In this document: positions 6,001 to 34,813 of the stretch, one piece after another
How the letters are laid out: each line of letters opens with the position of its first letter
Position numbering within the stretch: the stretch's first letter is position 1
Source: an uncultured Verrucomicrobiota bacterium
Lineage (GTDB): Bacteria; Verrucomicrobiota; Verrucomicrobiia; Opitutales; Seribacteraceae
Assembly: GCA_902618175.1 (NCBI GenBank)
Contig: CACMZN010000010.1
Span: forward strand, 1 to 52,296
Length of the DNA stretch: 52,296 nucleotides
Reading direction: 5' to 3'
Translations under genes and position numbers: made by a program
Notes under the pieces: generated by a model
The model's database searches: none
Seen by the model: the letters and a program-made list of their open reading frames with translations, nothing else
Told to the model about the DNA's origin: nothing

Positions 6001-9000
6001 GGATTGAGATTGAGTATGTAGTTGGCTCCGGAGCCAGAGATACTGGCTACGGTGGCACCAGTGACGGATACCTTGTCGTTGGTCAGTCCCACGGAGGTGG
6101 GCTGGTTGGATTTGTAGGGATGACTACCTGCAAGGGCTCCCGTCAATCCCCACTTATGTGCAAGATAACCTTCCACTTTGAGTCGATCAGAGGCCGACAG
6201 CGCGCTGTCATAAAGAAGAATTTCAGCAATGTCGGCTCCAAGATATCCTCCATTGTAGGATACGTTTCGGGCAATCATGAGATTCGCCAGGTTTAACCCG
6301 GATGCGGCTTGAAAGGGAATGACCTGCGCACTGAAGTTGGCCGCGTTGCCGGAACCATCGTTGCCTGGACGGTCTATTTTCCAGTTGGGAGCCGTGTAAT
6401 CGTTTCCGGTATTATTCCAACAGGAAAGAACTCGTTGCCAATTACCGTCGGCGGAATCTGAACTTTGCGCGACCAGATAAACTTCCACCGCTCCCGTAAC
6501 CGAACGGATGTCGCCGACATTCAACCAATCGTTGGTGCCGTCGAAGCGGACAACCGTTTTGGAAGCCAGACCCCCTGAAACAACCAAGGGTTGATTGGCG
6601 GAAGTGGTCTGCACCGCATGATGTCTTTTGCCGCTCTTGTCTATCCAAGAGTTCAATGCGTTGGACGAATGGACAAGAGAATCCGCATCGTCGGCATCAA
6701 GCCAAAGTGCCAGCCCTTCAAGGCTGCCTGGTTTGAAAGAAGTGGAGAAACCATTCGAAAATCCTGTAACCGACTGATCCGAGCCGTCTTTCTTGAAGGA
6801 AATGCTTACGGGTATGGGGTAGGTTTGAGTAGGACTGGTAACTGTGAACTCAGCGGACAAACCGGATCCAATCCCTGAGGGCGAGCTTTTGTTTGGATGG
6901 TTGGCAGGCAATCGCGAAACCAAACCCCATTTGTGGGCAAGGTATCCCTCGACAGCTTGCCTCTCGACTTCGTTCAGGACACGATCGAATGCGATGAACT
7001 CAGCAACTTCACACTTGGAATATTCATTGGAAGTCTGCCATCCGCCGAATTGCAGCTGCTTGGGCATGTAATTGCTGTCGTGTGAGGTGGTCGAATCAAC
7101 GTTACCTGATCGCGCCCCGTTAAAGAAGGTATTGCCTTGGTCGATTGTATTCATGGATGCACTGTGGATATGAAAGAGTTGATCTACAGAACTACCCTCT
7201 TGGGTCGTCCACCCCTGGAAGAACCATCTTTCCATTCGATTGTAGGCAAAGCCAAAGGCCCAATTATTCGAACGATCGGAAATTACCCGGTTGGTGTTTG
7301 TCGGATGGGTGTAACGAGCTACGGAAAACATGGTAAAAGATCCACCCCCGCCCCAGTAATTGGGGGAATAGAGAGCATCGTCTCCATCGAAGTTGACCAC
7401 TCCATAACCGGCGAATTTTGCCCGTGTCGGATTACCGGAACTCGTCATATTGTAGCCGTTTCCGGACTTGTCTGTCCAAGTACTTACAGCGTCTCCCACA
7501 TTGTAGCCAGTGTCGGTTGTTCCGTCTCCATTGAGGTCAGTGGCATCGTACCACATCTCGATTCCATCAAGGGAGCTGGTAGACAAAGAAGCGGGAAAGG
7601 ACGCGTTGAAGGAAATATTGGTTAGGTCGTTTCCAAAAAGACCACCATTGCCCGCAGCTGCATTGGCAGCGATCGACAAAGTCAGCGGAGAAGGGAAAAC
7701 CGTTGGCCTGACTCGGAAGGTGTAAGTGTGGCCACCACCCCCTGAACCTGAGAAGTTGGTCACTTGCCCGCCGGTCACAACCACATCGTCCTTGGTGAAT
7801 CCAGCAACTGGGAAATTCGAACCACCCCTTTGGAAGGTGATGCTCACCGGTATGTTGGACGAATTTGCGTATTCATCGACCGTGATCACGGGCAGGGTGG
7901 GAGTGTAGTAGTCTTCTCCAACACCACCAGCATATAAGGCGGCGACGTGGGTGCTGTTCAATTCAGCCTGATAAAGTCTGAAATCGTCGATGGTGCCTGT
8001 AAAGTTGGTCACGTTCCCGCGCCCTGTGCCATCGCCACCGATTTGGAAGTTTTTGGAGTCGCTGATGTTGAAAGTAAAGTTATCTGGACCGGTTTTTGAA
8101 ACTTCAATTCCATCAACGAAGAGTTTCACATCCCCAATGTTTCCACCGGCCTCTTTGCTCACCACAAGGTGATGCCAATTTCCATCATAAAAAGAATTGA
8201 CTGTGGCGGCAGCTCCCCCGGCATTATCCAACCGAAACTTGCCGGCATCGAAACAAAGGGTGGCCCGAGCTCCCGTAGAATTAAAACCCCAACTGGCGAT
8301 ACTTTGCTGTGGAGTGCCGGTCTTGGTTGTGGATTTTACCCAAAGAGCAATGCCGAACGCATTGGTGCCGGTTACCCCCGAAAAGGACGGAACGCTCACA
8401 ATGTCCCCAGTTCCGTCGAGTTCCAGGGCGAATCCTTTTTTGCCGGTTACCCAAGTAGGATCTCCACCAAATGTACTGTTTCGCCCGTATTTGGATCGGT
8501 CGATGGTGGTGGTTCCGGTGCCTTCATCGAAAGGAAGATAGAGTAACAGATCATTTTCCAAAGTTAAGATGTTTCTGAACTGGGTAACAGCTGAACCCAC
8601 TGCTGTAAGCCCTCCGGAACTTGTGGTTGCAGCACCAGCTGGAACACTCAGATTTATGATCGCGGGGTAAGAAGTTGGTACGAGGTTAAAGGTGTATGTG
8701 TGACCACTTCCGGAAAAATTACTTATTCTGGCATTAGTGACGTTTATGTCGGAAGAGGTGAAATTCGTGACGGACACGTTGGAGTTGTCTTGCTTGAAGG
8801 TAACGCTGCCCGATATCGGCGAACTGGCTGCTGTACCAGCTAGGGAAAAGACTGGGGCGGCGACACTAGGCTTTTTGAGCAGAACAATGCGGGCGGGACG
8901 ACGGCTTGTGGTCGAATCGTAAGTGTTGGTGTCTCTGTCCGTGGTTATGGAAATCTGGTCGTTTGCATTAAGATCGCCGAGCAAGGCAACGAGTGTTCCG

Positions 9001-10340
9001 GATGAGTGGTTGTGGCCTACCGTCGAGCGAATGTAATGAGATTGAATCGACGCTCCGGGAACAGGTGAACCATTTACGTTGACGGATACCTTGGGACTTA
9101 CGCGAACGCCGGTGGAATTAAGTTCGTCGTTGTACAAGAGCAAGTAATCCCCATCGGAATCAACGGAGACTTGGTGCGAGTTGGAACTGGTTGAGTGAGT
9201 GTACTTGGCGGCATCTATGGTTTCTTGGGTGGACCATTTGACCGATCCGGGCCTATTCCATTCGTTGGGGACCGAATAAGTGGTTTGGGAGCCGGTTGCG
9301 GAAAATAAACTATCAGCATTGGCGAGTTTCTCGATGAATAGGGAGCCTTTTTCACCACTTGGTACGGTGGTACTGGTAGTAACCGAGGAACGCCTGGAAA
9401 CGTCAAAAGTAAGAATTTGATTAGCAGAAGCAGTGCTGACCAGACCAACCCAATGCAGTGAAGACTTGTTTATCCCATCAGCATTTCTTAAGTAGCCTTG
9501 AGAAGCCACACCGCCGACCACTTCGCTCCCAGCCAACTTGACGGTTAGTTTTGGGGCAACCCGCGCTCCCGTTGATTGAAGAGGCAAGTTAACGAAAACA
9601 AGGTATTTACCGGCGGAATCCAGAGTAATGTTGTGGGAGTTGACGGAGTCGCTGTGAGTGAAGCCTGAATCCGCCAAATCATTGTCCCATTGAAGGGCGG
9701 AATCACTTGCAGGGTTAAAATCGTTGCCTGCAACCGTACCGGTCGTGGTGGCGGAAAAAACAGTTCGGGATGCGGAAACTTTCTCGCAATAAAGCGAACA
9801 TGTGCCGATTTTGACTGAATTCGCATGAGTATCTATGTTTTTTGCGAAGATTTCAATGTAATCGTTGGCAGAGAGATTTGGAACCAAAAGGTGAAAATGG
9901 CCGCTTGAGCGAATGTGTCCTGATTCGTGACGTAAATATGTACTCCGAGTTGAACCTTCGGGAATTGCAACGCCGTTTTTGCGTAAGACGAATTCGACCT
10001 GAGATCGATTGCTTGAAATCCTACTGTTTTCTTCAAGTGGTCCGGTGAAGGCGAAGAAATAATCGCCGTTTGTCTTGACCTTAATGCGAGTCGGAGCGGA
10101 GGCGTTGTAGTCAAAAGTACCCTGATCCAAATTCGAAGAGCTCCATTTGATTGCTTTTGAAGAGTTGGCTACCGTGGAATTGTTGTCTGAGAATGTGGTG
10201 CCGGAAAGGGACGCGCCTCCTTCGACGGTAGCTTTGAGGGTTCGACCGCTTTCCATGCTTAATAGAATAAACAAGACTAGCAAGGAGCGGATTGGGAATA
10301 CTTTCGGACAGCTGGTGTGGATGAATTCAGGCTTCTTCAT
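1..10340 (-). CDS. Giant secreted multidomain lectin-like (LamG) protein, 3' end missing
   Basis: A single frame runs without a stop from ATG at 10340 to the left edge, at least 3,446 residues, so the C-terminus and any anchor or sorting signal are not visible. I checked the frame at several points (about 500, 4790 and 7796) and it is continuous. An in-frame stop (TAA) lies about 25 codons upstream and no other ATG lies between. Residues 1-37 form a signal peptide with the core SLLVLFILLS. Approximate order: three tandem 150-residue beta repeats (40-492), a Big_12-like Ig domain, LamG, a second Ig, two AHKWGL-type ConA units (927-1147, 1207-1407), LamG, a putative-Ig domain, two FN3-like units, a third AHKWGL unit (2029-2273), putative-Ig, two FN3-like units, LamG (about 2585-2808), putative-Ig, F5/8 type C (2913-3070), DUF2341, LamG, putative-Ig. 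No catalytic domain was seen. It is probably an extracellular adhesin or glycan binder. Domain limits were read by eye. Confidence 0.85.
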   Translation of the reverse strand, partial: MKKPEFIHTSCPKVFPIRSLLVLFILLSMESGRTLKATVEGGASLSGTTFSDNNSTVANSSKAIKWSSSNLDQGTFDYNASAPTRIKVKTNGDYFFAFTGPLEENSRISSNRSQVEFVLRKNGVAIPEGSTRSTYLRHESGHIRSSGHFHLLVPNLSANDYIEIFAKNIDTHANSVKIGTCSLYCEKVSASRTVFSATTTGTVAGNDFNPASDSALQWDNDLADSGFTHSDSVNSHNITLDSAGKYLVFVNLPLQSTGARVAPKLTVKLAGSEVVGGVASQGYLRNADGINKSSLHWVGLVSTASANQILTFDVSRRSSVTTSTTVPSGEKGSLFIEKLANADSLFSATGSQTTYSVPNEWNRPGSVKWSTQETIDAAKYTHSTSSNSHQVSVDSDGDYLLLYNDELNSTGVRVSPKVSVNVNGSPVPGASIQSHYIRSTVGHNHSSGTLVALLGDLNANDQISITTDRDTNTYDSTTSRRPARIVLLKKPSVAAPVFSLAGTAASSPISGSVTFKQDNSNVSVTNFTSSDINVTNARISNFSGSGHTYTFNLVPTSYPAIINLSVPAGAATTSSGGLTAVGSAVTQFRNILTLENDLLLYLPFDEGTGTTTIDRSKYGRNSTFGGDPTWVTGKKGFALELDGTGDIVSVPSFSGVTGTNAFGIALWVKSTTKTGTPQQSIASWGFNSTGARATLCFDAGKFRLDNAGGAAATVNSFYDGNWHHLVVSKEAGGNIGDVKLFVDGIEVSKTGPDNFTFNISDSKNFQIGGDGTGRGNVTNFTGTIDDFRLYQAELNSTHVAALYAGGVGEDYYTPTLPVITVDEYANSSNIPVSITFQRGGSNFPVAGFTKDDVVVTGGQVTNFSGSGGGGHTYTFRVRPTVFPSPLTLSIAANAAAGNGGLFGNDLTNISFNASFPASLSTSSLDGIEMWYDATDLNGDGTTDTGYNVGDAVSTWTDKSGNGYNMTSSGNPTRAKFAGYGVVNFDGDDALYSPNYWGGGGSFTMFSVARYTHPTNTNRVISDRSNNWAFGFAYNRMERWFFQGWTTQEGSSVDQLFHIHSASMNTIDQGNTFFNGARSGNVDSTTSHDSNYMPKQLQFGGWQTSNEYSKCEVAEFIAFDRVLNEVERQAVEGYLAHKWGLVSRLPANHPNKSSPSGIGSGLSAEFTVTSPTQTYPIPVSISFKKDGSDQSVTGFSNGFSTSFKPGSLEGLALWLDADDADSLVHSSNALNSWIDKSGKRHHAVQTTSANQPLVVSGGLASKTVVRFDGTNDWLNVGDIRSVTGAVEVYLVAQSSDSADGNWQRVLSCWNNTGNDYTAPNWKIDRPGNDGSGNAANFSAQVIPFQAASGLNLANLMIARNVSYNGGYLGADIAEILLYDSALSASDRLKVEGYLAHKWGLTGALAGSHPYKSNQPTSVGLTNDKVSVTGATVASISGSGANYILNLNPTTNPSRIKIKFKEGAASSSITGERSNAGHKEILFRPPVTKESNLALYIPLGEAENATVVQDWGPHGLTGKVEGTIGRFPGLAGSSFRFDGSANNKITLINHRAMRMSNNGQYTLNLWLRHEIHSSGWGGVFTRNGRDYYLTLGNHDNSNGGYIHHRFSLGSNTSDGVNDAYRVSPEQWSMITLTNQGNPGVAKTYINGAPSQAKNISDVVGVNQQNNIYIGSNGDGNNQWFKGSLQNIRLYNIAFTDSEVSSLYSLGGSESGAVVISTDTLVPFNAGTTLSIQPTFTVPVSAYAPAWSASGLPSGLNIDANTGAITGTASGTPANTGTEHAVNLMATNGFGKTTKAMVFKAYPLPSSISDGGATDLGMYGATLKGSFVDPTDTDCKVHFLVDSADRGDSNVSAWAQHYTLEGQKSGSFSRVLSGLTFNSTYRYRLAVENAGGSLKWTASAGTFSTLASLTAPTLGDVNASNTISALISPAASTATLNGTLSSTGGENPTVYFVWGDNDAGSNYANLSSWDNQVAMGVLGTGSFSTNLTGLEAGKVYYFRTAASNGSGDVISDSLGIFSTSNAGGLTASPTTINPSNLKIWLDADSSNTLWQDSAASSAAGDGNSLALWQDKSGNGNHFTQTTSGDQPTVQTNQINSKTAVRFNQDSGSEDNGDDMQTTSPASDFPSAASWFAVVKLDEASVKTYNIIGTNSQNNDRFVNGTYSESRSSSFLNYRANMNSAYASFPATGVHLFSYESDASIFRISLNGSELATQGGGYSAGTATYWQIGNRYNNGQALNGHIGELIVMNTVLSPSSRQAMEGYLAHKWGLAGSLPTSHLFKSSTTSSAAPLISSSSTASGTVGSAFSYTITTNVANPAFEAANLPPGLTCNLGTGAITGSPLAGGQYEVTLSAQSTSSTQSATKVLTITIPISSPLLSVEAPANLVMNGAKLKGLVTNTGGRDATITVYWGDNNASTTAANWDSNYALGSKGAVALAHDVTGLSGGTTYYYIFKGDNAGSGGTGGTSWSAVQAFTTPTSVSAPILGSLHAATEITSSAAKFNVNLQSTGGDTTTLKFYWGDNDGGTTASSWDNVIVVNNAQPGNLIGEITSGLTAPTIYYFRTLASNWVGDTWASSTVSFTPSAIQTSPTRSANLLGWWKFDDDTNATVRDSSGNNNHGLLKNISHANVASQHKTDTPTGTGKSVDLNGNHYVVVSTPGQNTFDGGNQFTIAAWIKELPDGSWEPWISKRGENGQGWAIRRHGGNQQFSFKLIGPGEDEFVGNINPSSWTHVAGVWGGGKRKFFINGALYISEDRSGAVNVSDSALVLGARDNSGNYDSASPNIGDHANIWLDDVRFYNVFLSDSEISRIYGGGLGDVGQPWISITSATSATAATGMAFSYQVTATNAPTSFNLSDAPAWMNINAATGVVSGTPTAGGVVTFRVGATNANGTDFKQISLTIGDNAPFEYSLELTTDLTGMTRSATLAEASISSSAPTHTSYALAKAFDQDKTTGGGGNRWMPQQSALPNVDLIWEFIHPFRVTQYKLLGQGENFANRGPKAFVLYGSNNGSAWTAIDDMNSSSSNHQTSWTSNQERTFTVDTPGDYTYYKLLITQASGSDTYLGLREVDLIGVDYTPINDFNLMVVLDENNATFKAAGFRHSLSLANGEDLRFQSSSGVELKYEIASWNQSGKSVVWLSVPSMVRNDKIIMRWGNTAAASPSYTADGSAWSSYLGVYHLDQAQGATAVDSGPHDNHAAVADSSSVPNYDSTSIAGGAYSFAVNAKNGFKATNVSGDLTLDNFSVGTWIKGIQDDAQNWCGYWAMGTNSGGDLRLVANDVNPPRAFIEGGDDNNGIWAYTWDTTPTKMQAGIWKHVYFTSSNGKAKIYLNGVFQESKDMQDSSKVTEIMLGRRRENNAAGSVQDEMTFHKVSRHERWIDTVYKSQVPGNSFVNFANLAGPPYFEDTRDEVSAKNNVAMTPFTPTAFGGGSLSYTAAGLPPGISINAANGQI
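3520..7560 (-). repeat. Three dispersed ConA-like units ending in EGYLAHKWGL
   Basis: Three units of about 200-245 residues, at roughly 6900-7560, 6120-6720 and 3520-4255, each start with a 'W-Y/L-D-A-D/T-D' strand and an 'W-x-D-K-S-G' turn and end with EGYLAHKWGL followed by L(P)-x-x-H. They are separated by putative-Ig, Ig-like, LamG and FN3-like units. The ending is a hallmark I associate with large exoproteins of Verrucomicrobiota and Planctomycetota. At the DNA level the copies differ by many substitutions. Confidence 0.65.
8865..10218 (-). repeat. Three tandem ~150-residue beta repeats in the giant protein
   Basis: Protein-level repeats at about residues 40-188, 189-340 and 341-492. 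Each shows the same order of motifs: a W-x-D/S stretch, an H-(S)-x-S/N-x-H stretch, a 'D-x-G-D/K-Y-L/F' strand, a 'V-x-x-N/A-G' turn, a 'G/S-x-Y-L/I-R' strand, then 'S-S-G/L-H'. The copies are diverged in sequence, so this is an old domain duplication and not a recent DNA duplication. I do not assign a named family. Confidence 0.6.
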
Positions 10341-10762
10341 AAAGGCAAAGGAAAAGGCGACGGAACGGGGCGTGTTCCATCGACGAACATAATCTGTAGT
10401 AACTTGGAATGGAATTTATACGAATGGGCAGGGGTGGATTTTATTACAGTTGTTTAGCAAATAAAACCAAAATAATACGTAAATCGTTAAATTTTATGAA
10501 AATTGTCATCCCGTGGTATCAGGAGTTGGTCGAATACAAAGACACTACCTAATAATCCCTCCGACTGATTCAAAAGTCAACTGGATGATTTTGTTTCAGT
10601 TCCTTACAAAAAAACCTCGTTTACGTCGTTGATGAAATCCTGCCATATTTCAGGTTGCAAAGGAAAGTTTTTTTGAGGGATTTCTCATTGTCTAGAGGGG
10701 TAATTTAATTTGTTGTGGCTATTTGCCCTTTTAATCTCCTGAATTTTAATCCTTTACATATT
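10341..10762. other. Divergent intergenic region, 422 bp
   Basis: AT-rich spacer between the divergently transcribed giant exoprotein gene and the sulfatase gene string, so it must hold at least two promoters. I see no convincing sigma-70 pair, no strong inverted repeat and no good Shine-Dalgarno sequence in front of either start. A short in-frame upstream extension of the right-hand gene from GTG at 10715 is possible but would place 16 residues in front of a good signal peptide. Confidence 0.5.
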
Positions 10763-13700
10763 ATGTCTATTACAAAGACTGTATTATCCTCCCTTCTTTC
10801 ACGCCTACCATTGGTCTTAGCGATCTTGCTATATTCTACAGCTTTAGCCTCGGCCAACCCAGTTACTTATAAGGCGGGAAATCCGTCTAAAGGAAAAAAG
10901 ATTGTTTTCGTAGCCAGTGACCACGAATATCGTGCGGAAGAGACTCTTCCAGCATTGGCACGAATACTTGCCGTTCACCATGGTTTTGACTGCACAGTTC
11001 TCTTTGGTCTGAACGGAAATGGCGAAATTGAAGCAGGGGCTTCAAACATTCCTGGACTGGAAGCATTAGAAGATGCAGACGGTATGGTGATCTTTACTCG
11101 TTTCCTCGCACTTCCGGTGGAACAGATGAAGCATATTGATGATTATCTCAATCGGGCAGGCCCTGTTGTGGGTTTGCGCACATCAACTCATGGATTTAAA
11201 TACGACGACAAACGTAAAAATGATCCATATTACAAGTATAGCTTTCGTTACACGGGAGAGGACTACCAAGGTGGTTTTGGACATCAGGTTTTAGGGCAAA
11301 GCTGGGTAGGCCACTATGGCAGGAATCATAAGCAGAGTACTCGGATCGATATTATTCCAGCAATGAAAAACCATCCTATTCTTAAAGGTGTGAGCAAAGT
11401 GCATGTGCACGCCGGTGGGTACAATGCCAAAGCTCAGAAGGACTGGAACATTCTTACCATGGCACAGCCATTGATGACCATGGAAGCCAATGGAGTTCCC
11501 GATCCGGACAAACCTCCCATGGCTAGTGAATGGACTCGTCAATACGAAGGAAAGAATGGTAAAAAAGGCCGGGTATTTACATCTCTATACGGTGCATCCG
11601 AGGACATTTTGAATCCGGGATACAGAAGGTTGATCATCAATGGGATTTATTGGTCGCTCGGTTTAGAAAAACAAATCAAAGAGAATTCCAACATTGATTT
11701 CGTAGGTCTATACAAACCAAACACTTTCCGGGGAGGTGGAGAAGCCAAGGGAATCAAGCCGAAAATGTATGCCGATCTAAAAAGTCCCATACCTGCCAAT
11801 CATAATACGGAAAGGATTACTCCAAGGAAAAGAAAGATCTCCTTGCCTGATGGTCGTTTTTTACGAATCGAACTCCCAGGCATGGATAGAATTCTTACGC
11901 TTAATGAAGTTGAAATTTACTCCAATGGTAGAAACGTCGCCAAAGGCTCACGGACGAAGCAATCTAGCGTTGCTTACAATGGAATTTCGGAAAGGGCTGT
12001 CGATGGGAATACGAATCCTGATTATGGAGGGGATGGCCAGACACACTCCAAGAACTCCATAGATCCCTGGTGGGAAGTGGATTTGGGAAAAAACTATCCG
12101 GTTGAGAAAATAGAAGTTTGGAATCGGGACGGAGGCACCGCAAACAGACTTCATGGATTTAAATTGGAATTATTGGACGGGAATCGAAAACCAGTCTTCA
12201 TAAAGTCGGAAATTCGGCATGGGCAGAGAATTGTCTTCGACTTGAAGAAAGGAGGTGAGGTTTCTTACCTGAGTTTTGCGGGCAAGGTCGACAAACTGTC
12301 TTATGTCGGAAATCCCGTTGAGGTTGTCGGGGTTCCAGATGGATTCCGTGATCCAACTCCCTTTGTCTTTCAAAAAGGGGATGTTGTTGCCATATTGGGA
12401 AATGGACTTGCCGACCGTATGCAACACGACGGATGGATGGAAACCTTGCTGCAGAGTCAACTGATGGGTCAATGCATTTCCTTTCGAAACATGAGCGTCA
12501 GTGGAGATCGTCCGAGTAATTATCCTCGGAGCAGGGGATTCACACCGATGGAACAATATCTCCAGCATGTCAAAGCGGATGTTGTTTTTGCGATGTTTGG
12601 CTATAACGAATCTTTTGCCGGTCGAGAAGGAGCGGACAATTACCAGAAATCGCTCGTTGAATTCGTCCAAAGAATTCGCGGTTGCCTGCCGAATGGTAAA
12701 GATTTCCCAAGGATTGTTCTTTTCAGTCCGATTGCATTCGAAGATTTGGATGATCCGAATTTACCAAAAGGCAAGACGCATAACCAGAACCTGGCCGCTT
12801 TTGCTGAGGCAACGGAAAAGGCTGCGGAAAAGGCTGGCGTCGCATATGTCGATCTCTTCGAACCAACTGGAAAACTCTACCGCGAATGGGATAGGCCACT
12901 TACCATTAATGGAATTCATCTGAATGAATTTGGCAACGCTAGGGTAGCTGAAGTAATTTCGATGGCTTTGTTGAAAAACAAAATTTACGCTAATTCGTCC
13001 TTTCAACCTATTCGGGAAGCGGTGCTTGATAAAAACTGGCATTGGCATAACCGTTATCGGGCTACTGATGGAAATGACGTCTGGGGAGGGCGTTCGGGTT
13101 TGCGATTTGTGGATGACCAGTCGAATGCTGAAGTTTTGCAACATGAATTGCTGATGCTGGACGTAATGACGTCTAACCGCGACCAATTGATTTGGGAAAC
13201 AGTGCTCGGAAGGAAGTTCAAAGTAAACGACGATAACGTTCCTGATCCCATAAGGGTAATATCCAATGTGGGTGGAGGAAGCAAGAGCTCAAGAGCTGAA
13301 AAGGAGGGTACCACAAACTATCTCAGTCCGCAGGAAAGCATGAAGCGAATTGCGCTACGCGAGGGATTTGAAGTCAATTTGTTTGCGGACGAAACGCAGT
13401 TTCCCGAGTTGATCAATCCAGTCCAGTTGCAAGTTGACTCGGGTGGGAGAATGTGGGCGGCGGTCTGGCCCACTTATCCAAAATGGGAACCACTGAAGGA
13501 CATGAATGACGCCTTGCTGATCTTTCCCGATGACAATGGAGACGGAAAGGCGGACCGGGTCATTGAATTTGCAAAGGTGCACAATCCACTGGGTTTTGAA
13601 TTTTGGAACGGGGGCGTAGTGGTGACTTCCGGCCCGGATCTCCTCTTTCTCCGTGACAACGATGGCGACGACAAGGCCGATGAACGCTATGTTATTTTAC

Positions 13701-15271
13701 AAGGTTTGGGCACCTCCGACACACACCACGCCGCAAATAATCTGCTGTTCGGACCAGACGGTGGAATTTACTGGCAAAGTGGAATTTTTCTGCAACATAA
13801 TCATGAGCATCCATGGGGTCCTTCCATAAACACTGGCTCCTCTTCGATGTATCGCTTCGATCCCCGTCGGCATACGATCGCCTTGCATGGTTCAAATGCT
13901 CCGAATCCTCATGGTATAGCCCTTGATTATTGGGGCTACTTATACGCCACCGACGGAACTGGGGGGAGGTCCTATCAAGTTCGGCCCGAGGGAAAGAGTT
14001 GGAAAATGCATTCCCTCCTGAACAAAGAAGTCCGACCGGTTCCCGCTTGTGAGATTTTATCCAGTGATAACTTCCCGGATGAGATGCAGGGAGATTTTCT
14101 CATTTGCAACTCAATCGGATTTCTGGGTATCAAGCAGTATGAGCTTCATCGCGAAGGTGGTTATGAAGTCACTCGGATGATCGGGCGTGGAAAGGAAGCC
14201 AAAAAAGTGAAGGAAACCACTAGGTTCGGTGAGGTTTGGGGAACTCCCAACGGAGAAAAACTGAAAGTGATCAAAACCTTGGCGGATGGTTCCAAACTGG
14301 AAGAGGAAGCCGAAGGATTCCTCCTCAGTGGAGACAAGAATTTTCGGCCTACCGACGCGATATTCGGAGAAGATGGGGCACTTTACGTTGCGGATTGGCA
14401 GAACGTCATCATTGGTCACATGCAGCATAACGTACGCGATCCCAATCGTGACCACAAGCATGGCCGGATTTTCCGTGTTGCCTATGAGAAAAAGCCTTTG
14501 CAAAAATCGGTCAGGATAGAAGGTCAGTCCATTGACGAGCTTTTGGAAGTCCTTAAGCATCCAGTCGACGGGGTTCGTCACCGAACCAGGGTTGAATTGA
14601 GCGAAAGGGACACGGACAAGGTAATCAAGGCAACGCAAAAGTGGATGAAACAATTCGATCCCAAAAAAAAGGAGGATGCCCATCACCTTTTGGAAGCCCT
14701 TTGGGTCCATCAACAACACAACCGAAGAAACGGACCCTTGCTCAATGACCTTTTGAAGTCCCCGCATCCTCACGCCCGAATAGCGGCGATCACCGTACAG
14801 CATCACTGGTATAATGCCGATCCAACCAAGGGAATACAGATGATTGAGGAAGATGCTTCAGCAGTTGCTCAAAAATCGGGAATTCTTTCCATAACTCCGG
14901 AATTGACCACAATTCGGATCGGTACGGTGGTAGAGAAAATGAAGTACGACCTGAGTGAATTTACGATTGAACCGGGTAAAAAAGTGAAGCTCATATTTGC
15001 AAATTCTGATTATATGCCCCACAACTTGGTATTCACAAGGCCCAACAAAGCGGACTCCATTGCCCAGCAAGCGTTGAATTTGGGAGCGAAGGGATTCGAC
15101 ATGGCCTTCGTTCCGGAAAGTCCCGACGTACTCTGGTCGACTCAGTTGGTCGATCATGGCAAGGAGGAACATCTGATTTTTTCCACTCCCGTTGAAAAAG
15201 GGGATTACCCATATGTTTGTACTTTTCCCGGGCATCATATCTTGATGCGCGGAATGATGAAAATACGTTAA
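10763..15271 (+). CDS. ThuA / F5-8C / SGNH / PVC-type propeller / azurin fusion protein
   Basis: Start ATG 10763 is preferred because it gives a clean signal peptide (hydrophobic core to ALASA, residues 1-31); GTG 10715 is an alternative. Numbering from 10763 (1,502 aa): ThuA-like domain (about 44-300), F5/8 type C carbohydrate-binding domain (365-525, with the DPWWEVDLG core), SGNH/GDSL-like domain (538-738, ending NGIHLN), PVC-type 'membrane-bound dehydrogenase' beta-propeller (about 860-1245), helical HEAT-like stretch (1255-1370), and a C-terminal cupredoxin. The cupredoxin has His1420 (MPHNL), Cys1486, His1491 and Met1495 in CTFPGH-x3-M spacing, the type-1 copper set of azurin. Proteins with this propeller often carry a CxxCH haem domain; I see none here. 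It is probably a secreted or periplasmic redox enzyme acting on glycans. It is first in the sulfatase gene string, 18 bp before the next gene. The substrate is unknown. Confidence 0.85.
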
Positions 15272-15289
15272 AGTCGCTTGAGTCCCTGC

Positions 15290-16789
15290 ATGACCGGTAT
15301 GATCCTTGCTTTTACTCTGTTTCTTTTGACAAGCGGATTGTTTGCCGAATTGGATCGTCCCAACATTGTTTTTCTACTTACCGACGATCAAAGTACTTAT
15401 TCTTTGGGATGCTACGGGAATCAAGACGTCAGGACACCCAGCATTGATCGTTTGGCGAGGGAAGGAGTGGTTTTTGAGAGTCACTACGTAACCACTGCCA
15501 TATGCATGGCTTCGCGGGCATCGATCATGACCGGAATGTACGAATACAAACATGGAACCAACTTCACGCATGGGGACATGCTGCTGAAGAGATGGAAAAA
15601 AACTTACCCGGTTAGGTTACGAAAAAATGGATACCTCATCGCCTTTGCAGGTAAGTTTGGATTTGATATTAGAGAGAAGCCCGATGGAAAGAGACTCCCG
15701 CTACCCGAAAAAGATTTCGACAAGTGGGGCGGAGGACCGGGTCAGACTCACTATGCGACCATAAGGAACGAATCAATGAAGCATTATGCCGAGATGTATC
15801 CTCATTCGACTCGCTCGTACGGTGCTTTCGGTCGCGATTTTATTAAAGAATCCTCTAAACAGGACAAACCATTCTGTCTTTCGATCAGTTTCAAGGCTCC
15901 TCATCGGCCAACCACGCCTGATCCGCTGGACGATCACGTATACGCGGAGAAAACTTTTCGCAAGCCAAACAATTTCGGAAGAAAGAACGGCCTGCATTTT
16001 TCGAAACAAAGTAAGCAGGACAGACAGTACGAACGTTTTCATTCTTGGAATTATTCGGACCGATATGATGAGGTCATGGCCATTTATCATCAACAAATTC
16101 ATGCCGTCGACGTCGCCGTAGGAATGATTAGAGAAGAACTTAAGGAAAGTGGTTCCGAAATGAACACCGTAATCATCTACACTTCGGACAATGGCTTTTT
16201 CTGCGGCTCCCATGGCTATGGTTCCAAGGTTTTGCCCTATGAGGAATCCTCACGAGTTCCTCTCATCATTTATGATCCAAGGCACGACAACTCCGGAAAA
16301 AATATCCGAATATCAGCGTTAACCGGAAACATTGACTTTGCACCCACGATATTATCATTGGCCGGGCTTTCAGTACCCAAAGACATGGATGGGAAAAATT
16401 TAATGACTTTGTATGATCATCCAGAGTCCATACTGCATTCCTCTCTTCCCCTGATCAATGTCTGGGGAAAGGCTCCTACCCACGCGCTCGGAGTTGTCAC
16501 CGAAGACCTAAAATATCTTCATTGGGGATATGCTGAAGAAGGATTTGAGTCCACAAACGAACTCTATGACCTAAAGAAAGATCCCATGGAACTGACTAAT
16601 CAATTCTATTCACCAACTTACCAGAAAACTGTAAGGAAGATGTGCAAATTGTATGATCGGCATCTGGCTCATTGGCGCAAAAATTCGGTCTCTTACAACG
16701 ACTACCAACGATTCGGCGTTCTTTTTGATCGAAAGCTCACTTGGAGTGAGAAAGAAAAAAAACTGAATGCGTTCAATAACGAAAATTAG
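15290..16789 (+). CDS. S1 family sulfatase (motif C-M-A-S-R)
   Basis: Secreted sulfatase of the alkaline-phosphatase superfamily that would hydrolyse sulfate esters (or N-sulfates) on a glycan. Numbering from ATG 15290 (499 aa): signal peptide 1-19, metal-binding TDDQ (Asp32-Asp33), formylglycine motif C72-M-A-S-R76, the second metal-site motif SDNGF in the C-terminal half, and the usual C-terminal 'ELYDLKKDP' region. The Cys-x-Ala-x-R form needs a formylglycine-generating enzyme or anSME, neither of which is in the window. A TTG at 15278 could add four residues, but ATG 15290 sits directly on the signal peptide. Nine bases separate it from the next sulfatase. I cannot assign an S1 subfamily or substrate by eye. 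Confidence 0.9.
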   Translation: MTGMILAFTLFLLTSGLFAELDRPNIVFLLTDDQSTYSLGCYGNQDVRTPSIDRLAREGVVFESHYVTTAICMASRASIMTGMYEYKHGTNFTHGDMLLKRWKKTYPVRLRKNGYLIAFAGKFGFDIREKPDGKRLPLPEKDFDKWGGGPGQTHYATIRNESMKHYAEMYPHSTRSYGAFGRDFIKESSKQDKPFCLSISFKAPHRPTTPDPLDDHVYAEKTFRKPNNFGRKNGLHFSKQSKQDRQYERFHSWNYSDRYDEVMAIYHQQIHAVDVAVGMIREELKESGSEMNTVIIYTSDNGFFCGSHGYGSKVLPYEESSRVPLIIYDPRHDNSGKNIRISALTGNIDFAPTILSLAGLSVPKDMDGKNLMTLYDHPESILHSSLPLINVWGKAPTHALGVVTEDLKYLHWGYAEEGFESTNELYDLKKDPMELTNQFYSPTYQKTVRKMCKLYDRHLAHWRKNSVSYNDYQRFGVLFDRKLTWSEKEKKLNAFNNEN

Positions 16790-16798
16790 CAACAAGCA

Positions 16799-18238
16799 AT
16801 GAAGATCAAATTTTACCTATTGCTTTTGACTTATCTTGGATATTTCTACCACTCTTCAGCGATTGAATCTCCCAACATTGTTGTTCTCCTTGTGGATGAT
16901 CTTGGTTACATGGATATTGGAGCAAACAATCCCAATTGTTTTTACGATACTCCCAATATCGACAAGCTGGCCAAGTCCGGAATGCGTTTCACCAATGGCT
17001 ATGCAGCAAATCCGGTTTGTTCGCCTACCCGTTACAGTTTAATGACTGGGAAATATCCCACTCGTGCAAAGGCGACCAATTTTTTCTCCGGCAAACGATC
17101 CGGTCAATTCAATCCCGCTCCCCTTCACGATCGAATGGAACTGTCTGAGATTACCCTGGCCGAGCTTCTCAAAAAAGTGGGATATGGTACCTTCTTCGCC
17201 GGTAAGTGGCACTTGGGTCCCAGCATAGAGTGGTGGCCTAAGGCTCAAGGGTTTGACGTGAATATGGGAGGCTGGGCGAAGGGAGGACCATACACGGGAA
17301 GAAAATATTTCTCTCCTTTTCAAAATCCTGAGCTTCATCCGGACAGCGAGCCCGGTGAGCATCTACCTAACCGCCTGGCGGAAGAAACCGCTAACTACAT
17401 CTACCGAAACAAAGGAAAGCCTTTTCTTGCTTATTTGTCTTTTTATTCAGTACATACACCTCTTATGGGTCGGATAGATTTGGTTGAAAAATACCGCGCG
17501 GAATCAGCGATGATTCATGGAGAAGAATTTGCTCATCTGAATGGGCATCTGGGAAAAACTAAGAAAGTGAGAATTCTTCAAAAGCATCCGGTATACGCTG
17601 CCATGGTGGAGGCAATGGATGAGGCAGTAGGAAAAGTTCTTGATGCTTTGGACGAAGCAGGCGTGACCGAAAATACCATGGTTTTCCTAACCTCGGACAA
17701 CGGGGGTCTTTCCACTTCCGAGGGAAGTCCGACCAGTAACCTTCCACTGCGAGGGGGGAAGGGCTGGGTTCAGGAAGGTGGTATCCGAGAACCTTGGATT
17801 ATCCGATACCCGGGAGTGACCCAACCTGGTTCAGTCAGCAGCGAGATGATTTGTTCCATTGATCTTCTTCCGACCATTGCATCGTGCGTAGGGTCAAAAT
17901 TCAAACACCAAGTGGACGGCGTTGATTTAACCCCTGCCTTGAAAGGAAAAAAATTAAATCGGGATGCTCTTTACTGGCACTACCCTCATTATTCGAATCA
18001 GGGAGGAATTCCGGGAGGTGCGATCCGCATGGGAGACTACAAACTCTTTGAAAACTATGAGAACGGAAAAGTGTCCCTATTTCATTTGAAAGAGGATATT
18101 GGAGAATCCAAGGATTTGTCATTACGCGAACCTCAAAGAGTTAAGGTTATGAGAAAAAAGCTGCATACCTGGTACAAGGAAGTGGATGCCAAGTTCCTCC
18201 AGCCCAAGGGTGAATCAACCAATCCATGGAGACCTTGA
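16799..18238 (+). CDS. S1 family sulfatase, arylsulfatase A-like (motif C-S-P-T-R)
   Basis: Secreted S1 sulfatase, 479 aa. Signal peptide about 1-21 ending SSA. Metal site Asp33-Asp34 (VDDLGY), canonical formylglycine motif C74-S-P-T-R78, downstream AGKWHLG motif, TSDNGG metal site, and the 'LRGGKG...EGGIREP' segment typical of arylsulfatase A-like members. The C-terminal part has the usual 'LFHLKEDIGESKDL' segment. Its end overlaps the start of the next sulfatase by 13 bp, which suggests translational coupling. All active-site elements I can identify are intact, so I expect it to be active if matured. The substrate is not predictable by eye. Confidence 0.92.
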   Translation: MKIKFYLLLLTYLGYFYHSSAIESPNIVVLLVDDLGYMDIGANNPNCFYDTPNIDKLAKSGMRFTNGYAANPVCSPTRYSLMTGKYPTRAKATNFFSGKRSGQFNPAPLHDRMELSEITLAELLKKVGYGTFFAGKWHLGPSIEWWPKAQGFDVNMGGWAKGGPYTGRKYFSPFQNPELHPDSEPGEHLPNRLAEETANYIYRNKGKPFLAYLSFYSVHTPLMGRIDLVEKYRAESAMIHGEEFAHLNGHLGKTKKVRILQKHPVYAAMVEAMDEAVGKVLDALDEAGVTENTMVFLTSDNGGLSTSEGSPTSNLPLRGGKGWVQEGGIREPWIIRYPGVTQPGSVSSEMICSIDLLPTIASCVGSKFKHQVDGVDLTPALKGKKLNRDALYWHYPHYSNQGGIPGGAIRMGDYKLFENYENGKVSLFHLKEDIGESKDLSLREPQRVKVMRKKLHTWYKEVDAKFLQPKGESTNPWRP

Positions 18239-19989
18239 TTTTCATAAAAAAAACTTCTTTTTTTGCCATTGGCTTGTTTTTCTTCTCTGCGGCTTGGGCT
18301 AAAAAACCAAACGTCATTATCATTATGACCGATGATCAGGGATATGGTGATCTTGGTTGCCATGGGAATCCGATACTCAAGACACCCAACCTCGATCATC
18401 TGCATTCAGAATCGATTAGGTTCACAGACTTTCACGTCAGCCCTTTTTGTACTCCCACCCGGGCCGCGCTGATGACCGGGAATCATCCTGGAGTGACCGG
18501 AGCTTACCGAACCAGTGCCGGAAGAACCATGATGCATCCGTCCGAAAAAACCATCGCCAATCTCTTTGCTGAAAATGGCTACATGACTGGAATGACCGGG
18601 AAATGGCACCTGGGGGACAATGCTCCTCACCGGCCTCAGGATCGTGGTTTCAAAGATGTGGTTTGGCACCGATGTGGTGGAGTTGGTCAAGCGTCCGATT
18701 ATTGGGGAAATGATTATTTTGATGATACTTATGAACGGGTCCGTCCAGGAAGTCGAAAAGGAACTTTTGAAAAATTTGATGGTTATTGCACTGATGTGTG
18801 GTTCAGCGAAGGCATGCGTTTTATAACCGAAAACCAAAAGGATCCCTTCTTTCTTTATATCGCCACCAATGCCCCCCATGGACCCTTCCGGGTAGATCCC
18901 AAATGGGCTGAACCTTACCAAAGAAATGAGGTAAACAACTCCAATTTCTTCGGTATGATTGCAAATATTGATCACAATTTGGGACGGCTGCGGGATCATC
19001 TAAGAGATTTAAAACTGGCTGAACATACCATCCTGATCTTCATGACCGATAATGGCACAGCTGCTGGATGTAATTTTCCAGGTTTGGATACGGAACCTAT
19101 CTTGGGCTTCAACGCTGGAATGAGGGGAAAAAAATCCTCGATCTATGAAGGGGGTCACCGGGTGCCTCTCTTTTTACATTGGCCAGCCGGTGGTTTCTCC
19201 AAAGGTCAGGATGTTGAAGCATTGGCTGCCCATATTGATGTTCTTCCCACACTTGCCGATCTATGCAAATTTCCCAAGCCAGACAAAAGCTATGATCTGG
19301 ATGGGCATAGCCTAAAGCCACTCCTTGGCGGCAAGACCAAGAGTCTTCGCCGTAACTATCACTTCCTACAATACCATGGGGGTGCTGGTCATAAATATGC
19401 CCTTGGCCCCTATACCCATTCAGTCGTCCTGACGGAAAAATGGCGACTGGTTAACACCCCAGACAAACATGAGCTCTATGATATTCAAAAGGATCCATCT
19501 CAACGAAAAAACCTTGCTTCCCAGCAACCTAAAATCGTGAATGAACTTCGCCAGTCTTATCAATCATTCTGGGATAGAGTATCCCAAGGATTAAAGCCGG
19601 TTGCGATCGACATTGGTGACCCCACGGAAAACCCTGCTATTCTTTGTTCGCAGGATTGGCGTCCTGAAACGGGTAACCCACCATGGAACTTCCGTTCCAT
19701 TCAAGGCATTCCCAAAGTGACTCACCCCTGGTTGGTCAATGTATTGAAAGCAGGCGAATATCGCTTCTCTTTACGTCAATGGCCGAAAGAAGCCGACAAA
19801 AGAATCGTTGGTGTAAAGGCTAGGATTAAAATTGCCGGAGTTGAAAAAGAAGCTGTGATCAAAGAAGGATCCAAGAAAATTGATTTCACTCTTACAATAC
19901 CTTCAGGAATCAGTGAACTTTGGACTTATATCTACAACCAACAAGGAGAACTGGGTGGTGCCTACTTCACCGAAGTCGAAAAGCTGTAA
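18226..19989 (+). CDS. S1 family sulfatase with C-terminal beta extension (motif C-T-P-T-R)
   Basis: Secreted S1 sulfatase, 587 aa, longer than its neighbours. Signal peptide 1-25 ending AAWA. Metal site Asp36-Asp37 (TDDQGYGD), formylglycine motif C75-T-P-T-R79, TGKWHLG, and the distal TDNG. The catalytic part ends near residue 470. The last 115 residues hold a beta-rich region (LKAGEYRFSLRQWP onward) that is not part of the core sulfatase fold and may be a small accessory domain. The ATG lies inside the previous gene (13-bp overlap), and the next gene begins 5 bp after the stop. Resembles Planctomycetota/Verrucomicrobiota arylsulfatases; subfamily not assigned. Confidence 0.9.
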   Translation: METLIFIKKTSFFAIGLFFFSAAWAKKPNVIIIMTDDQGYGDLGCHGNPILKTPNLDHLHSESIRFTDFHVSPFCTPTRAALMTGNHPGVTGAYRTSAGRTMMHPSEKTIANLFAENGYMTGMTGKWHLGDNAPHRPQDRGFKDVVWHRCGGVGQASDYWGNDYFDDTYERVRPGSRKGTFEKFDGYCTDVWFSEGMRFITENQKDPFFLYIATNAPHGPFRVDPKWAEPYQRNEVNNSNFFGMIANIDHNLGRLRDHLRDLKLAEHTILIFMTDNGTAAGCNFPGLDTEPILGFNAGMRGKKSSIYEGGHRVPLFLHWPAGGFSKGQDVEALAAHIDVLPTLADLCKFPKPDKSYDLDGHSLKPLLGGKTKSLRRNYHFLQYHGGAGHKYALGPYTHSVVLTEKWRLVNTPDKHELYDIQKDPSQRKNLASQQPKIVNELRQSYQSFWDRVSQGLKPVAIDIGDPTENPAILCSQDWRPETGNPPWNFRSIQGIPKVTHPWLVNVLKAGEYRFSLRQWPKEADKRIVGVKARIKIAGVEKEAVIKEGSKKIDFTLTIPSGISELWTYIYNQQGELGGAYFTEVEKL

Positions 19990-19994
19990 AATTC

Positions 19995-21527
19995 ATGAAA
20001 TCATACCTACTCTCCCTTGGTATCTGTTTATCTTTTCTACTAGAGGCGAAGCATTCTGCTCGCCCGAATGTAATTTTCGTACTTGCTGACGATTTGGGAA
20101 TTGGCGATTTATCTCCCACCAATGCAAACTGCAAAATCAAAACTCCCCATCTGCAGAAGATGGCGGATGAAGGGATCACCTTTTTCGATGCTCATTCTTC
20201 CAGTGCGGTTTGCACACCCACACGATATGGAGTTCTGACCGGTCGCTACAACTGGCGCTCCCGACTTGTCCGTGGTGTGCTTAGCGGGACGAGCAAGCAC
20301 TTGATTCCAGCCGGCCGTGAAACCGTTGCCCACCTGCTGAAAAAAGTTGGTTATCATACGCAGATGATTGGCAAATGGCACCTTGGTTGGGACTGGGGCA
20401 AAGCGGACAAGAGTGAACGGCAATGGAAGGATATTGATTTTACCAAGCCCGTGATAAACGGACCGGATATCAATGGATTCTCCAATTACTATGGGCACTG
20501 CGGATCCTTGGATATGCCTCCCTATGTATGGGTCGACACCGGAAAGGTCACTGCATTACCCGATCGGGAAGAAGGTGTGACCAAAAGCGAAGATCCTTAT
20601 GGTTGGTATCGAAACGGACCGATTGGTTCTGATTTTCACATTGATGAAGTTCTGCCTCATTTATTCGAAAAAAGCATTGCTTACGTAACGGAGCGTGCGA
20701 AGACGAAAAAGCCTTTTTTCCTCTACTTGCCACTCCCTGCCCCACATACCCCAATTGTCCCTGTCTCTCCCTACAAGGAAGCGAGTAAGATGAATGCGTA
20801 TGCTGACTTTGTCATGCAGATCGACGGACACATGGGAGAATTATTAACGACTCTCAAAAAAGTAGGTGTGGATGAAAACACGCTAGTATTTTTTAGCAGT
20901 GACAATGGTTGTTCTCCAGAGGGAAATTTTACCAGGCTCAAAGAATTCGGTCATGACCCAAGTGCTGGTTTTCGTGGGCATAAAGCTGACATTTACGAGG
21001 GTGGACACCGGGTACCAATGCTCGTTCGCTGGCCCCAAGGCATCAAGGCTGGCCAAACCAGCTCGTCCTTGGCGTGTTTGACCGATTTCTATGACACGAT
21101 GAGGGATATTACCGGACAGAAAAAAAAGGATCAGGGGGGTGAGGATTCGTTCAGCCTCGTTCCTGCCTTCAAGGGCAAGTCCAAGACAACCCGTTCCACA
21201 TTGATCAGTCATTCTATCAGTGGAGCCTTCGCCATCCGCCAAGGTGATTGGAAGTTGTGTCTCTCTGCAGGTAGCGGAGGATGGAGCGATCCCAGAGAAG
21301 GAGAGGCAAGGAAACTAGGTTTGCCCCGGGTTCAACTTTTTAATTTGAAACACGACAGGAACGAGAAAAAAAATTTACATGCGAAGTACAAAGACAAATT
21401 AAGTGAACTTCTCGGGATGCTGGACAAAGAGGTGAAAAATGGCAGAAGTACTCCGGGCAAACCAGTTGCAAACGACCGTGAAGTAAGTTTTCTCCCTGCT
21501 GGAGTGAGCATTTCCAAATCGAAATAA
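19995..21527 (+). CDS. S1 family sulfatase (motif C-T-P-T-R)
   Basis: Secreted S1 sulfatase, 510 aa from ATG 19995. The frame stays open upstream to 19920, but that part lies within the previous gene and lacks signal-peptide character, while MKSYLLSLGICLSFLL from 19995 is a good signal sequence 5 bp after the preceding stop. Metal site Asp32-Asp33 (ADDLG), formylglycine motif C73-T-P-T-R77, IGKWHLGW, SSDNGC, and the YEGGHRVPM segment of the C-terminal half. The C-terminus carries a 'QLFNLKHDRNEKKNL' region. Intact active-site set; arylsulfatase-like; substrate unknown. Confidence 0.92.
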   Translation: MKSYLLSLGICLSFLLEAKHSARPNVIFVLADDLGIGDLSPTNANCKIKTPHLQKMADEGITFFDAHSSSAVCTPTRYGVLTGRYNWRSRLVRGVLSGTSKHLIPAGRETVAHLLKKVGYHTQMIGKWHLGWDWGKADKSERQWKDIDFTKPVINGPDINGFSNYYGHCGSLDMPPYVWVDTGKVTALPDREEGVTKSEDPYGWYRNGPIGSDFHIDEVLPHLFEKSIAYVTERAKTKKPFFLYLPLPAPHTPIVPVSPYKEASKMNAYADFVMQIDGHMGELLTTLKKVGVDENTLVFFSSDNGCSPEGNFTRLKEFGHDPSAGFRGHKADIYEGGHRVPMLVRWPQGIKAGQTSSSLACLTDFYDTMRDITGQKKKDQGGEDSFSLVPAFKGKSKTTRSTLISHSISGAFAIRQGDWKLCLSAGSGGWSDPREGEARKLGLPRVQLFNLKHDRNEKKNLHAKYKDKLSELLGMLDKEVKNGRSTPGKPVANDREVSFLPAGVSISKSK

Positions 21528-21536
21528 TTCAAATCC

Positions 21537-22238
21537 ATGAAGATGATGAAGTTGTTTTTTAACTGTGGTTGCGGGATTTTTCTAATCATGACCTCAAATT
21601 TTCTTCAAGCGGATGAGGAGTTCTTCAACGGAAAGGATTTCAAGGGGTGGAGTGCCAACGATATGTCCTATTGGTCGGTTCAGGATGGTGCGATTGTAGG
21701 AACTAAGGGAGACCAGAGAATCGAAGGCAATCAATTCCTCTGGTATGAACGGAAAGTCAGGGACTTCAGGCTTACGCTCTCTGTCAGGCAAACTCCTTTT
21801 GCCGCCAATGGAGGCATACAATTTCGTTCCGAGCGACAGCCCAATGGATCCGCAATTGGCTATCAGGCCGACATTGGAAAAGGTTGGTGGGGTTCACTTT
21901 ACCACGAGCATGGTCGTAAGATGCTTGCCAAAAACCCAGATACAGAGGATGAAAACCTGAAACCTGAGGATTGGAATCGCTATGAAATTCTCGCTGTCGG
22001 TCATCGGATCTGGCTGGCCATAAACGGCAGAATTACCGTAGCCGTACATGATCCGATCGGAGAACTTGATGGACAAATTTCCCTGCAAATACACGGGGGA
22101 ATGCCTCAAAAAATTATTTACCGCGATCTTGGACTCGTTGAAAACCCAAAAATTCAATTGCAGGGAATGAAAGAATTGGAGTTGGAAAAACTTCTTAGCT
22201 TTGCACAGAAAGGTTACAGTAAGCCTAACGAAAAGTAG
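21537..22238 (+). CDS. DUF1080 / 3-keto-disaccharide hydrolase-like protein
   Basis: Secreted 233-aa protein with a signal peptide (1-25, ending LQA) and the DUF1080 jelly-roll fold (PF06439, LamG-like). Visible family features are the 'FFNGKDFKGW' opening, 'WSVQDGAIVG', 'GGIQFRSE' and 'WNRYEILAVGHRIWLAINGR'. Members of this family have been linked to hydrolysis of 3-keto-glycosides or to sugar binding, and they are greatly expanded in Verrucomicrobiota and Planctomycetota. The gene lies 9 bp after one sulfatase and 41 bp before the next, in the middle of the string, so a role on the same glycan is likely (inference). No oxidoreductase that would make a 3-keto sugar is next to it, unless the propeller/azurin fusion plays that part. 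Confidence 0.85.
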   Translation: MKMMKLFFNCGCGIFLIMTSNFLQADEEFFNGKDFKGWSANDMSYWSVQDGAIVGTKGDQRIEGNQFLWYERKVRDFRLTLSVRQTPFAANGGIQFRSERQPNGSAIGYQADIGKGWWGSLYHEHGRKMLAKNPDTEDENLKPEDWNRYEILAVGHRIWLAINGRITVAVHDPIGELDGQISLQIHGGMPQKIIYRDLGLVENPKIQLQGMKELELEKLLSFAQKGYSKPNEK

Positions 22239-23701: not shown

Positions 23702-23740
23702 AAGTTGTCCCCTATTCCAGTGTCCCAATATTTTTTTGGT

Positions 23741-29646: not shown

Positions 29647-29795
29647 ATGCGTAGTGAATAAAATTCAAATCTCATTAAAGATAAGCTAGAGGGCACTCTG
29701 AGGACTATTAAGAGAAAATTGAAATTATTAGAGTATTTTTAATGATGAAGATGAAATTTTTTGGGGCAAACAAAATTTGGATAGTAAGAAGTGAT

Positions 29796-30473: not shown

Positions 30474-30502
30474 GGGGTTGCTAGGATATTGGATGATGGG
30501 GA

Positions 30503-31288: not shown

Positions 31289-31305
31289 AAGCAGGGGAAA
31301 TCAAC

Positions 31306-32973: not shown

Positions 32974-32975
32974 CA

Positions 32976-34640: not shown

Positions 34641-34813
34641 TGGCTATTATTTTAAATTGGGAAATTCATATCAAAGTTATAATGATGTATTCATATTAAA
34701 CTGATATCATAAACGGGGACTGCTTTATGAACTATAATCAGTCCATCTGCAATACATAGGATGGGCAGTAATTTGAGCTTTGAATCTATTTGGAAAAATT
34801 TCCCTAAAGGGAT

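Follow-up and report, generated by a model that had tools for sequence, protein, structure and literature searches.

A predicted glycan oxidoreductase of an uncultured verrucomicrobial bacterium with an azurin-like copper domain in the haem c position of its propeller family

This study concerns a large fusion protein encoded in a 52,296-nucleotide stretch of DNA (hereafter the window, meaning the whole stretch analysed) from an uncultured Verrucomicrobiota bacterium (assembly GCA_902618175.1, contig CACMZN010000010.1). The fusion combines ThuA-like, F5/8-C and SGNH-fold domains with a TIGR02604/DUF7133 propeller and a C-terminal cupredoxin. Many genomes of Verrucomicrobiota and Planctomycetota encode several TIGR02604/DUF7133 proteins, a family for which no function has been established. 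We found that the propeller is regularly accompanied by an electron carrier, and that haem and copper are exchanged at the same position. The surprise is less the single fusion than this rule, which constitutes a strong argument for the propeller being a redox enzyme. On balance, we favour the reading that the fusion is an exported oxidoreductase, periplasmic or surface-located, which is predicted to act on a sulfated glycan and to pass the electrons to copper.

Copper and haem as exchangeable carriers

The C-terminal domain of the fusion was recognised by the Copper-bind profile (PF00127) with an E value of 1.6e-10 and 41.7 bits, the cut-off being 21.2. The original prediction, made from the sequence of the window, had proposed type-1 copper ligands with azurin spacing, and their positions proved exact: His1420 (15020-15022), Cys1486 (15218-15220), His1491 (15233-15235) and Met1495 (15245-15247), which fit the azurin pattern C-T-F-P-G-H-x-x-x-M. 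These His-Cys-His-Met ligands are invariant in all 64 aligned copper tails. An AlphaFold2 model of residues 855-1502, built from an alignment of 50 relatives (predicted local distance difference test 84.8, predicted template modelling score 0.85), contains a confidently predicted propeller, HEAT-like helices and a cupredoxin. The latter superposes on auracyanin A (template modelling score, TM, 0.88; 1.8 A) and on azurin (TM 0.81), in line with the copper site originally proposed. As the score against the azurin equivalog TIGR02695 is 40.8 bits, below the curated cut-off of 105.1, we refer to the tail as azurin-like rather than as azurin. The open reading frame (ORF) of the fusion was scanned for CxxCH and contains none, which agrees with the predicted absence of a haem c motif. 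Elsewhere in the same genome, a free cupredoxin ORF of 165 codons (contig C52, L051:3863-4357) is a possible soluble partner of such tails.

To obtain a near set of relatives, 84,980 species genomes were scanned with the propeller alignment, and the best 80 of more than 500 loci were kept. Nearly all are labelled Verrucomicrobiota or Planctomycetota, with up to 85% identity to the window. Behind the HEAT segment, these relatives have either a cupredoxin or a class-I cytochrome c, and each of the two is in some proteins followed by a TIGR02603 haem domain. Complete tails comprised 49 with copper, 14 with copper plus haem, 14 with one haem and 10 with two haems; shuffled near-set tails yield CxxCH in 0.04% of trials. 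L096, which seemed carrier-free in the ORF scan, is a frameshift, and its copper motif is intact in another frame. A second survey, covering genomes from the phylum of the window and started from a query that contained the cupredoxin, gave 77 complete propeller proteins, with one haem in 53, two haems in 2, copper in 22 and no carrier in none. The statement that propeller proteins of the Planctomycetes-Verrucomicrobia-Chlamydiae (PVC) group usually end in CxxCH is therefore correct (55 of 77). The fusion, which lacks the CxxCH haem site of the TIGR02604 family, does depart from this majority, but it is not an exception, given that 22 of the 77 are likewise copper-tailed.

With regard to the history of these tails, a propeller tree of 89 proteins contained five carrier changes, at least four of which are forced by well-supported branches. 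A more careful tree of 80 proteins gave four changes and bootstrap trees four to five, and none of 200 trees could be reconciled with a single change. In the nearest clade, haem tails are nested inside copper lineages. The proposal that copper takes over electron transfer is thus right in that copper stands where relatives carry haem c, but its direction is probably backwards. In one group (L085, L094, L095 and L137), a return to copper seems to have taken place. We infer these directions from trees whose outgroup is distant.

Swapping between unrelated redox folds, with almost no losses, is what would be expected of an electron carrier. For the copper domain, the predicted role in electron transfer is the natural one and is supported. 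Two folds that share only electron transfer replace each other at one position, which is most simply read as the tail accepting electrons from the propeller or donating electrons to it. These observations favour a carrier that is obligatory but interchangeable in the family, which in turn makes the propeller probably a redox enzyme. The idea that the organism uses copper for want of cytochrome c was rejected, since its genome contains haem-tailed propellers (C39, C77 and C78) and a cytochrome b-c fusion. This last protein (window 46478-48289, minus strand) combines cytochrome b with a cytochrome c domain that bears two CxxCH motifs; it corresponds to a fusion of bc-complex subunits and could receive or supply electrons in the host cell.

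Two further observations concern carrier tails in general. Tandem tails of cupredoxin and TIGR02603 haem, with CxxCH 66 residues past the copper Cys, look like a built-in two-centre wire; they were seen in L067, L068, L070, L072, L076-L078, L087, L088, L090, L091, L093, L097, L102 and L108. Other large proteins, which fall outside the propeller profile used here, also carry fused cupredoxins (L050:5477-8104 and L052:5724-8498), and copper tethering therefore goes beyond the propeller family.

Propeller chemistry and competing interpretations

The propeller of the fusion scores 169.6 bits against TIGR02604, whose curated cut-off is 122.2. Its top structural matches (VIA-align) are sugar dehydrogenases dependent on pyrroloquinoline quinone (PQQ), namely 3a9g (Z 26.8; 2.7 A over 278 residues), 2ism (Z 25.4) and 3das (Z 24.3), and its fold is the six-bladed one of soluble glucose dehydrogenase (sGDH) and aldose sugar dehydrogenase (Asd). 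A one-to-one profile comparison with the aldose sugar dehydrogenase YliI of E. coli gave a probability of 98, and a sequence search of the PDB with the propeller profile returned repeat-propeller noise only. DFPase-type propellers (Z 24) score close behind, as does AA12 (Z 23.6), and the fold alone is consequently no proof of a dehydrogenase. His989 aligns with His144 of sGDH, which we take to be the catalytic residue, and is invariant in the 94 near relatives. In the wider family, D986, H988, N1048, D1211, H1219 and R1235 are near-universal.

In the mechanism that we propose, the F-type-lectin-like domain, perhaps together with the ThuA-like and inactive SGNH domains, would hold the glycan while the sGDH-like propeller would oxidise one of its hydroxyls. 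The electrons would then move to the type-1 copper of the cupredoxin, which could pass them on to a cytochrome, either soluble or in the membrane. A class-I cytochrome c takes the same slot in relatives, and some relatives have the extra TIGR02603 haem domain behind either carrier. In this mechanism we infer the direction of electron flow, the glycan as substrate and the identity of the sugar. This little-understood class of propellers is thus predicted to pull electrons out of sugars, and probably does so.

Several findings weigh against this interpretation. At the positions of sGDH Arg228 and Arg408, which we take to be PQQ-anchoring, the fusion has Pro and Thr, and none of the 94 near relatives has Arg at either (Pro or similar at the former; Ser, Thr, Val or Ala at the latter); this comparison comes from a profile alignment at about 20% identity. 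His989 is conserved in only 63 of 79 proteins of the wider set, whereas His988 is nearly universal (76 of 79). PqqC was found in none of the 27 genomes tested, the same search being positive in 6 of 387, in one other family of the phylum. With regard to the carrier rule, L134 stops after the HEAT segment without any carrier, and the copper share in the phylum survey may be inflated because the query held the cupredoxin, although this bias leaves the absence of carrier-free tails untouched. The gene cluster of the fusion also includes a DUF1080 gene. According to one report, the DUF1080 hydrolases BT2157 and CCNA_01705 belong to a 3-keto pathway, and periplasmic dehydrogenases are proposed to pair with DUF1080 hydrolases in lactose use (PMC9007349). 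Across relatives, such genes are linked to the propeller about as often as chance predicts (4 loci in flanks totalling 366 kb, compared with about 6 per Mb genome-wide), and for this reason the gene is not used as evidence here and a link to the 3-keto pathway was dropped.

As to the oxidation that had been predicted for the propeller, the fold would suggest PQQ-type chemistry, but the two PQQ arginines and the PQQ pathway are absent. Endogenous PQQ is an unlikely cofactor. The cofactor may be scavenged PQQ or, more likely, another one such as a bound metal.

A challenge comes from a soil verrucomicrobial clone whose purified TIGR02604-HEAT-cytochrome c protein is reported to have freed glucose from lactose with a Km of 1.8 mM and a kcat of 13.2 per s, a measurement of hydrolysis and not a dehydrogenase assay (PMC5342196). 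The propeller could instead cleave glycosides, as a hydrolase or a lyase, perhaps through a transient internal oxidation, with a secondary role for the copper or haem tail. Moreover, fucosidases of glycoside hydrolase family 29 (GH29) are absent from 23 of 24 genomes carrying propeller proteins (the window's genome and 23 relatives were searched). In that assay glucose was read with a glucose oxidase kit, and the accessible part of the report describes no electron acceptor control (PMC5342196). Hydrolysis would also leave the near-constant redox carrier, and its exchange of one redox fold for another, unexplained, and we regard this alternative as unlikely.

It is less likely still that electrons run the other way, from copper or haem into a propeller reductase, as in nitrous oxide reductase, in which a propeller is joined to a cupredoxin. 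That enzyme was the first Foldseek entry for the model because both contain these two folds, and the near-universal His988 and His1219 could bind a metal. The whole-chain match is poor (TM 0.24, root-mean-square deviation about 25 A), on which grounds a relation to nitrous oxide reductase was rejected; in addition, the propeller is closest to sugar dehydrogenases and the neighbouring genes encode sulfatases. We attach a similarly low probability to the view that the cupredoxin serves copper storage, sensing or adhesion and has no part in catalysis, the whole protein being a glycan-binding scaffold. The SGNH domain without catalytic residues and the incomplete PQQ site would suit such a scaffold, but the strict azurin ligand geometry, the cytochrome c exchanged at the same slot and the invariant polar residues of the propeller would not.

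Returning to the glycan oxidoreductase, its fused copper site would provide a built-in optical readout: in a screen, substrates could be recognised by loss of the blue band. If sugars are indeed oxidised, an oxidative route would be added to the breakdown of sulfated algal glycans. A bolder generalisation, which we consider rather doubtful, is that DUF7133/TIGR02604 proteins form a non-PQQ oxidative class that attacks glycans with a tethered carrier which is obligatory but freely exchanged (azurin, cytochrome c or TIGR02603). In bacteria that are rich in sulfatases but have no GH29, this class would take the place of glycoside hydrolases, its targets being sulfated glycans of the fucose or galactose type.

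Domain layout and gene neighbourhood

The features of the fusion and of the genes that follow it are listed in Table 1. The ORF starts at an ATG, with an in-frame GTG upstream at 10715. The order of Pfam and NCBIfam matches (ThuA, weak; F5_F8_type_C; Lipase_GDSL_2; DUF7133/TIGR02604; Copper-bind) agrees with the domain order claimed originally. All five of those domains were recovered, and a signal peptide and the HEAT-like segment between propeller and cupredoxin, which had been overlooked, complete the list. An assembly artefact is very unlikely, as homologues with 83-85% identity in the propeller keep a similar length and the identical domain order. The five-domain order recurs in about 30 proteins from Verrucomicrobiota and Planctomycetota, including those of the window and L039, and the fusion is thus not an oddity of the window. 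Its closest relatives are from marine verrucomicrobial bins, several of them labelled Opitutales or Opitutia. The ThuA profile gave 28.4 bits, the gathering score being 33.4, and reached 42.9 and 43.3 in the relatives L039 and L068; the fold matches 4e5v (Z 18.2; 3.7 A over 231 residues) and 1t0b (Z 17.5).

Table 1. Features of the fusion gene and of the gene run that it opens
Feature	Position in window	Strand	Residues	Basis
Whole fusion ORF	10763-15271	+	1502 in total	Profile hits; homologues alike in length and order
Likely Sec signal peptide (...STALASA|NP)	10763-10855	+	1-31	Sequence by eye; model helix 2-29
ThuA-like domain	10889-11710	+	43-316	Pfam, sub-threshold here and above threshold in L039 and L068; structure match
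F5/8-C domain, F-type-lectin-like	11846-12271	+	362-503	PDB matches; triad
SGNH-fold domain, probable pseudo-esterase	12362-12985	+	534-741	Pfam; structure match; alignment
Sugar-dehydrogenase-like PVC propeller, TIGR02604/DUF7133	13352-14497	+	864-1245	Profiles; structure match
HEAT-like helical linker	14531-14815	+	1257-1351	Model helices 403-497; HEAT_2 in relatives
Cupredoxin, azurin/auracyanin type	14879-15268	+	1373-1502	Profiles; model; ligand alignment
Four consecutive sulfatases	15278-16789, 16799-18238, 18226-19989, 19920-21527	+		PF00884
3-keto-disaccharide hydrolase family gene (DUF1080)	21537-22238	+		PF06439, E 1.6e-31
Three more sulfatases	22280-23701, 23705-25123, 25823-27313	+		Profile search
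HAD hydrolase	25123-25806	+		Profile search

The SGNH fold is supported by 4q9a (Z 17.8) and PF13472 (51.5 bits). The domain retains the block III Asn and the block V His, but GNG replaces GDS at residues 546-548 (12398-12406), which places Gly548 at the nucleophile position. Of 86 aligned relatives, 64 have Gly at this position and 8 have Ser, and in the clade of 28 that bears ThuA the Gly is nearly invariant (90% or more). In block V (Asn716-Gly-Ile-His719), Asn takes the place of the catalytic Asp in 90 of 91. Judging from these replacements, the domain is a probable pseudo-esterase in this clade, and the deacylation that had been suggested is unsupported, as both catalytic Ser and Asp are missing.

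The F5/8 domain, originally described as a carbohydrate-binding module, can be defined more sharply. Its PDB matches are fucose-binding F-type lectins (FBP32, Sm-hPAF and fucolectin-related proteins), and it contains a lectin triad of His428 (12044-12046), Arg455 (12125-12127) and Arg462 (12146-12148), which is kept in all 47 aligned domains. The spacings of 27 and 7 equal those of His52-Arg79-Arg86 in eel agglutinin, where the triad contacts the 4-OH of fucose (PMC5712786). The calcium motif h2DGx is present as AVDGN, with Asp414 in 47 of 47. The acidic residue that lies two positions after the first Arg in F-type lectins is not in place (the fusion reads RDG, and most relatives have a gap of one residue), and we therefore use the term F-type-lectin-like. 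From the domain, a sugar whose 4-OH is axial would be expected, for example fucose; as a guess, fucose would be the leading ligand and galactose the next. Given the missing acidic residue and the absence of GH29 from 23 of 24 genomes, we stop short of naming fucoidan as the substrate with certainty.

The fusion opens a gene run that also contains seven sulfatases, a 3-keto-disaccharide hydrolase family gene and a HAD hydrolase. The window's genome, which is 67% complete, has 59 sulfatase matches. A sulfatase is found no more than 2.5 kb away from six of the seven TIGR02604 genes in this genome (P about 2e-4, calculated with a generous, upper-bound background); several of the seven are fragments at contig ends, and four score under the family cut-off. 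An earlier genome study states that planctomycete-type cytochrome c genes are often neighbours of sulfatase genes and show an inverse relation to glycoside hydrolases across lake genomes, and calls the association intriguing, with nothing known of the function of these haem proteins (PMC5615132).

Among the other genes seen, a 1065-residue ORF matching the DUF1080 profile also contains CxxCH (L053:1131-4328), and corresponds to a member of the 3-keto-hydrolase family with a possible haem site. In the window, the sulfatase cluster adjoins a minus-strand group of genes at 27811-36094 that looks like phosphate uptake and comprises a Na/Pi cotransporter with PhoU, two ABC permeases and a histidine kinase. 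In a verrucomicrobial isolate, fucoidan breakdown is limited by phosphate supply (PMC12872454). At the other side, an open frame of about 3471 codons (1-10415, minus strand) runs off the contig end, and its end resembles Ig-like adhesin repeats by eye.

Comparison with known systems

The beta-galactosidase Lac161_ORF7 resembles the fusion in its architecture of TIGR02604, HEAT and cytochrome c, but its tail is haem rather than copper; the two were compared by description only (PMC5342196). Planctomycete-specific cytochrome c proteins (PSCyt/PSD) are large proteins of the PVC group that combine haem with carbohydrate-binding domains and, like the fusion, are encoded next to sulfatases. Their domain families differ from those of the fusion, and the accessible part of the source does not describe a copper version (PMC5615132).

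PQQ-dependent aldose sugar dehydrogenases (Asd, YliI; 3a9g, 2ism, 3das) and AA12 pyranose dehydrogenase share the six-bladed fold (Z 24-27), whereas in the fusion the PQQ-site arginines are replaced and no PQQ synthesis genes were found in the tested genomes. Azurin and auracyanin (TIGR02695, PF00127) have the fold, ligand identity and spacing of the tail in common with the fusion. They are free proteins, in contrast to the fused domain described here, which scores under the azurin equivalog cut-off.

The nearest known group, the PVC-type haem-binding CxxCH proteins (TIGR02604; DUF7133) with a TIGR02603 tail, shares the propeller, the HEAT linker and a C-terminal carrier. The fusion differs from them in having type-1 copper instead of haem c, and in its additional ThuA-like and F-type-lectin-like domains. 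We found no description of copper tails on this family in the literature, subscription journals being mostly outside the search, in which TIGR02604 itself was named by a single paper, the lactose study (PMC5342196); presumably some PVC proteins are named as plastocyanin/azurin family in NCBI annotation. Tethered carriers that are a cupredoxin in some enzymes and a cytochrome c in others are also seen in three-domain copper nitrite reductases and in cytochrome-c-tailed nitrous oxide reductase. These reductases are alike in being redox enzymes with a tethered carrier, whereas their catalytic domains and substrates are unrelated to those of the fusion.

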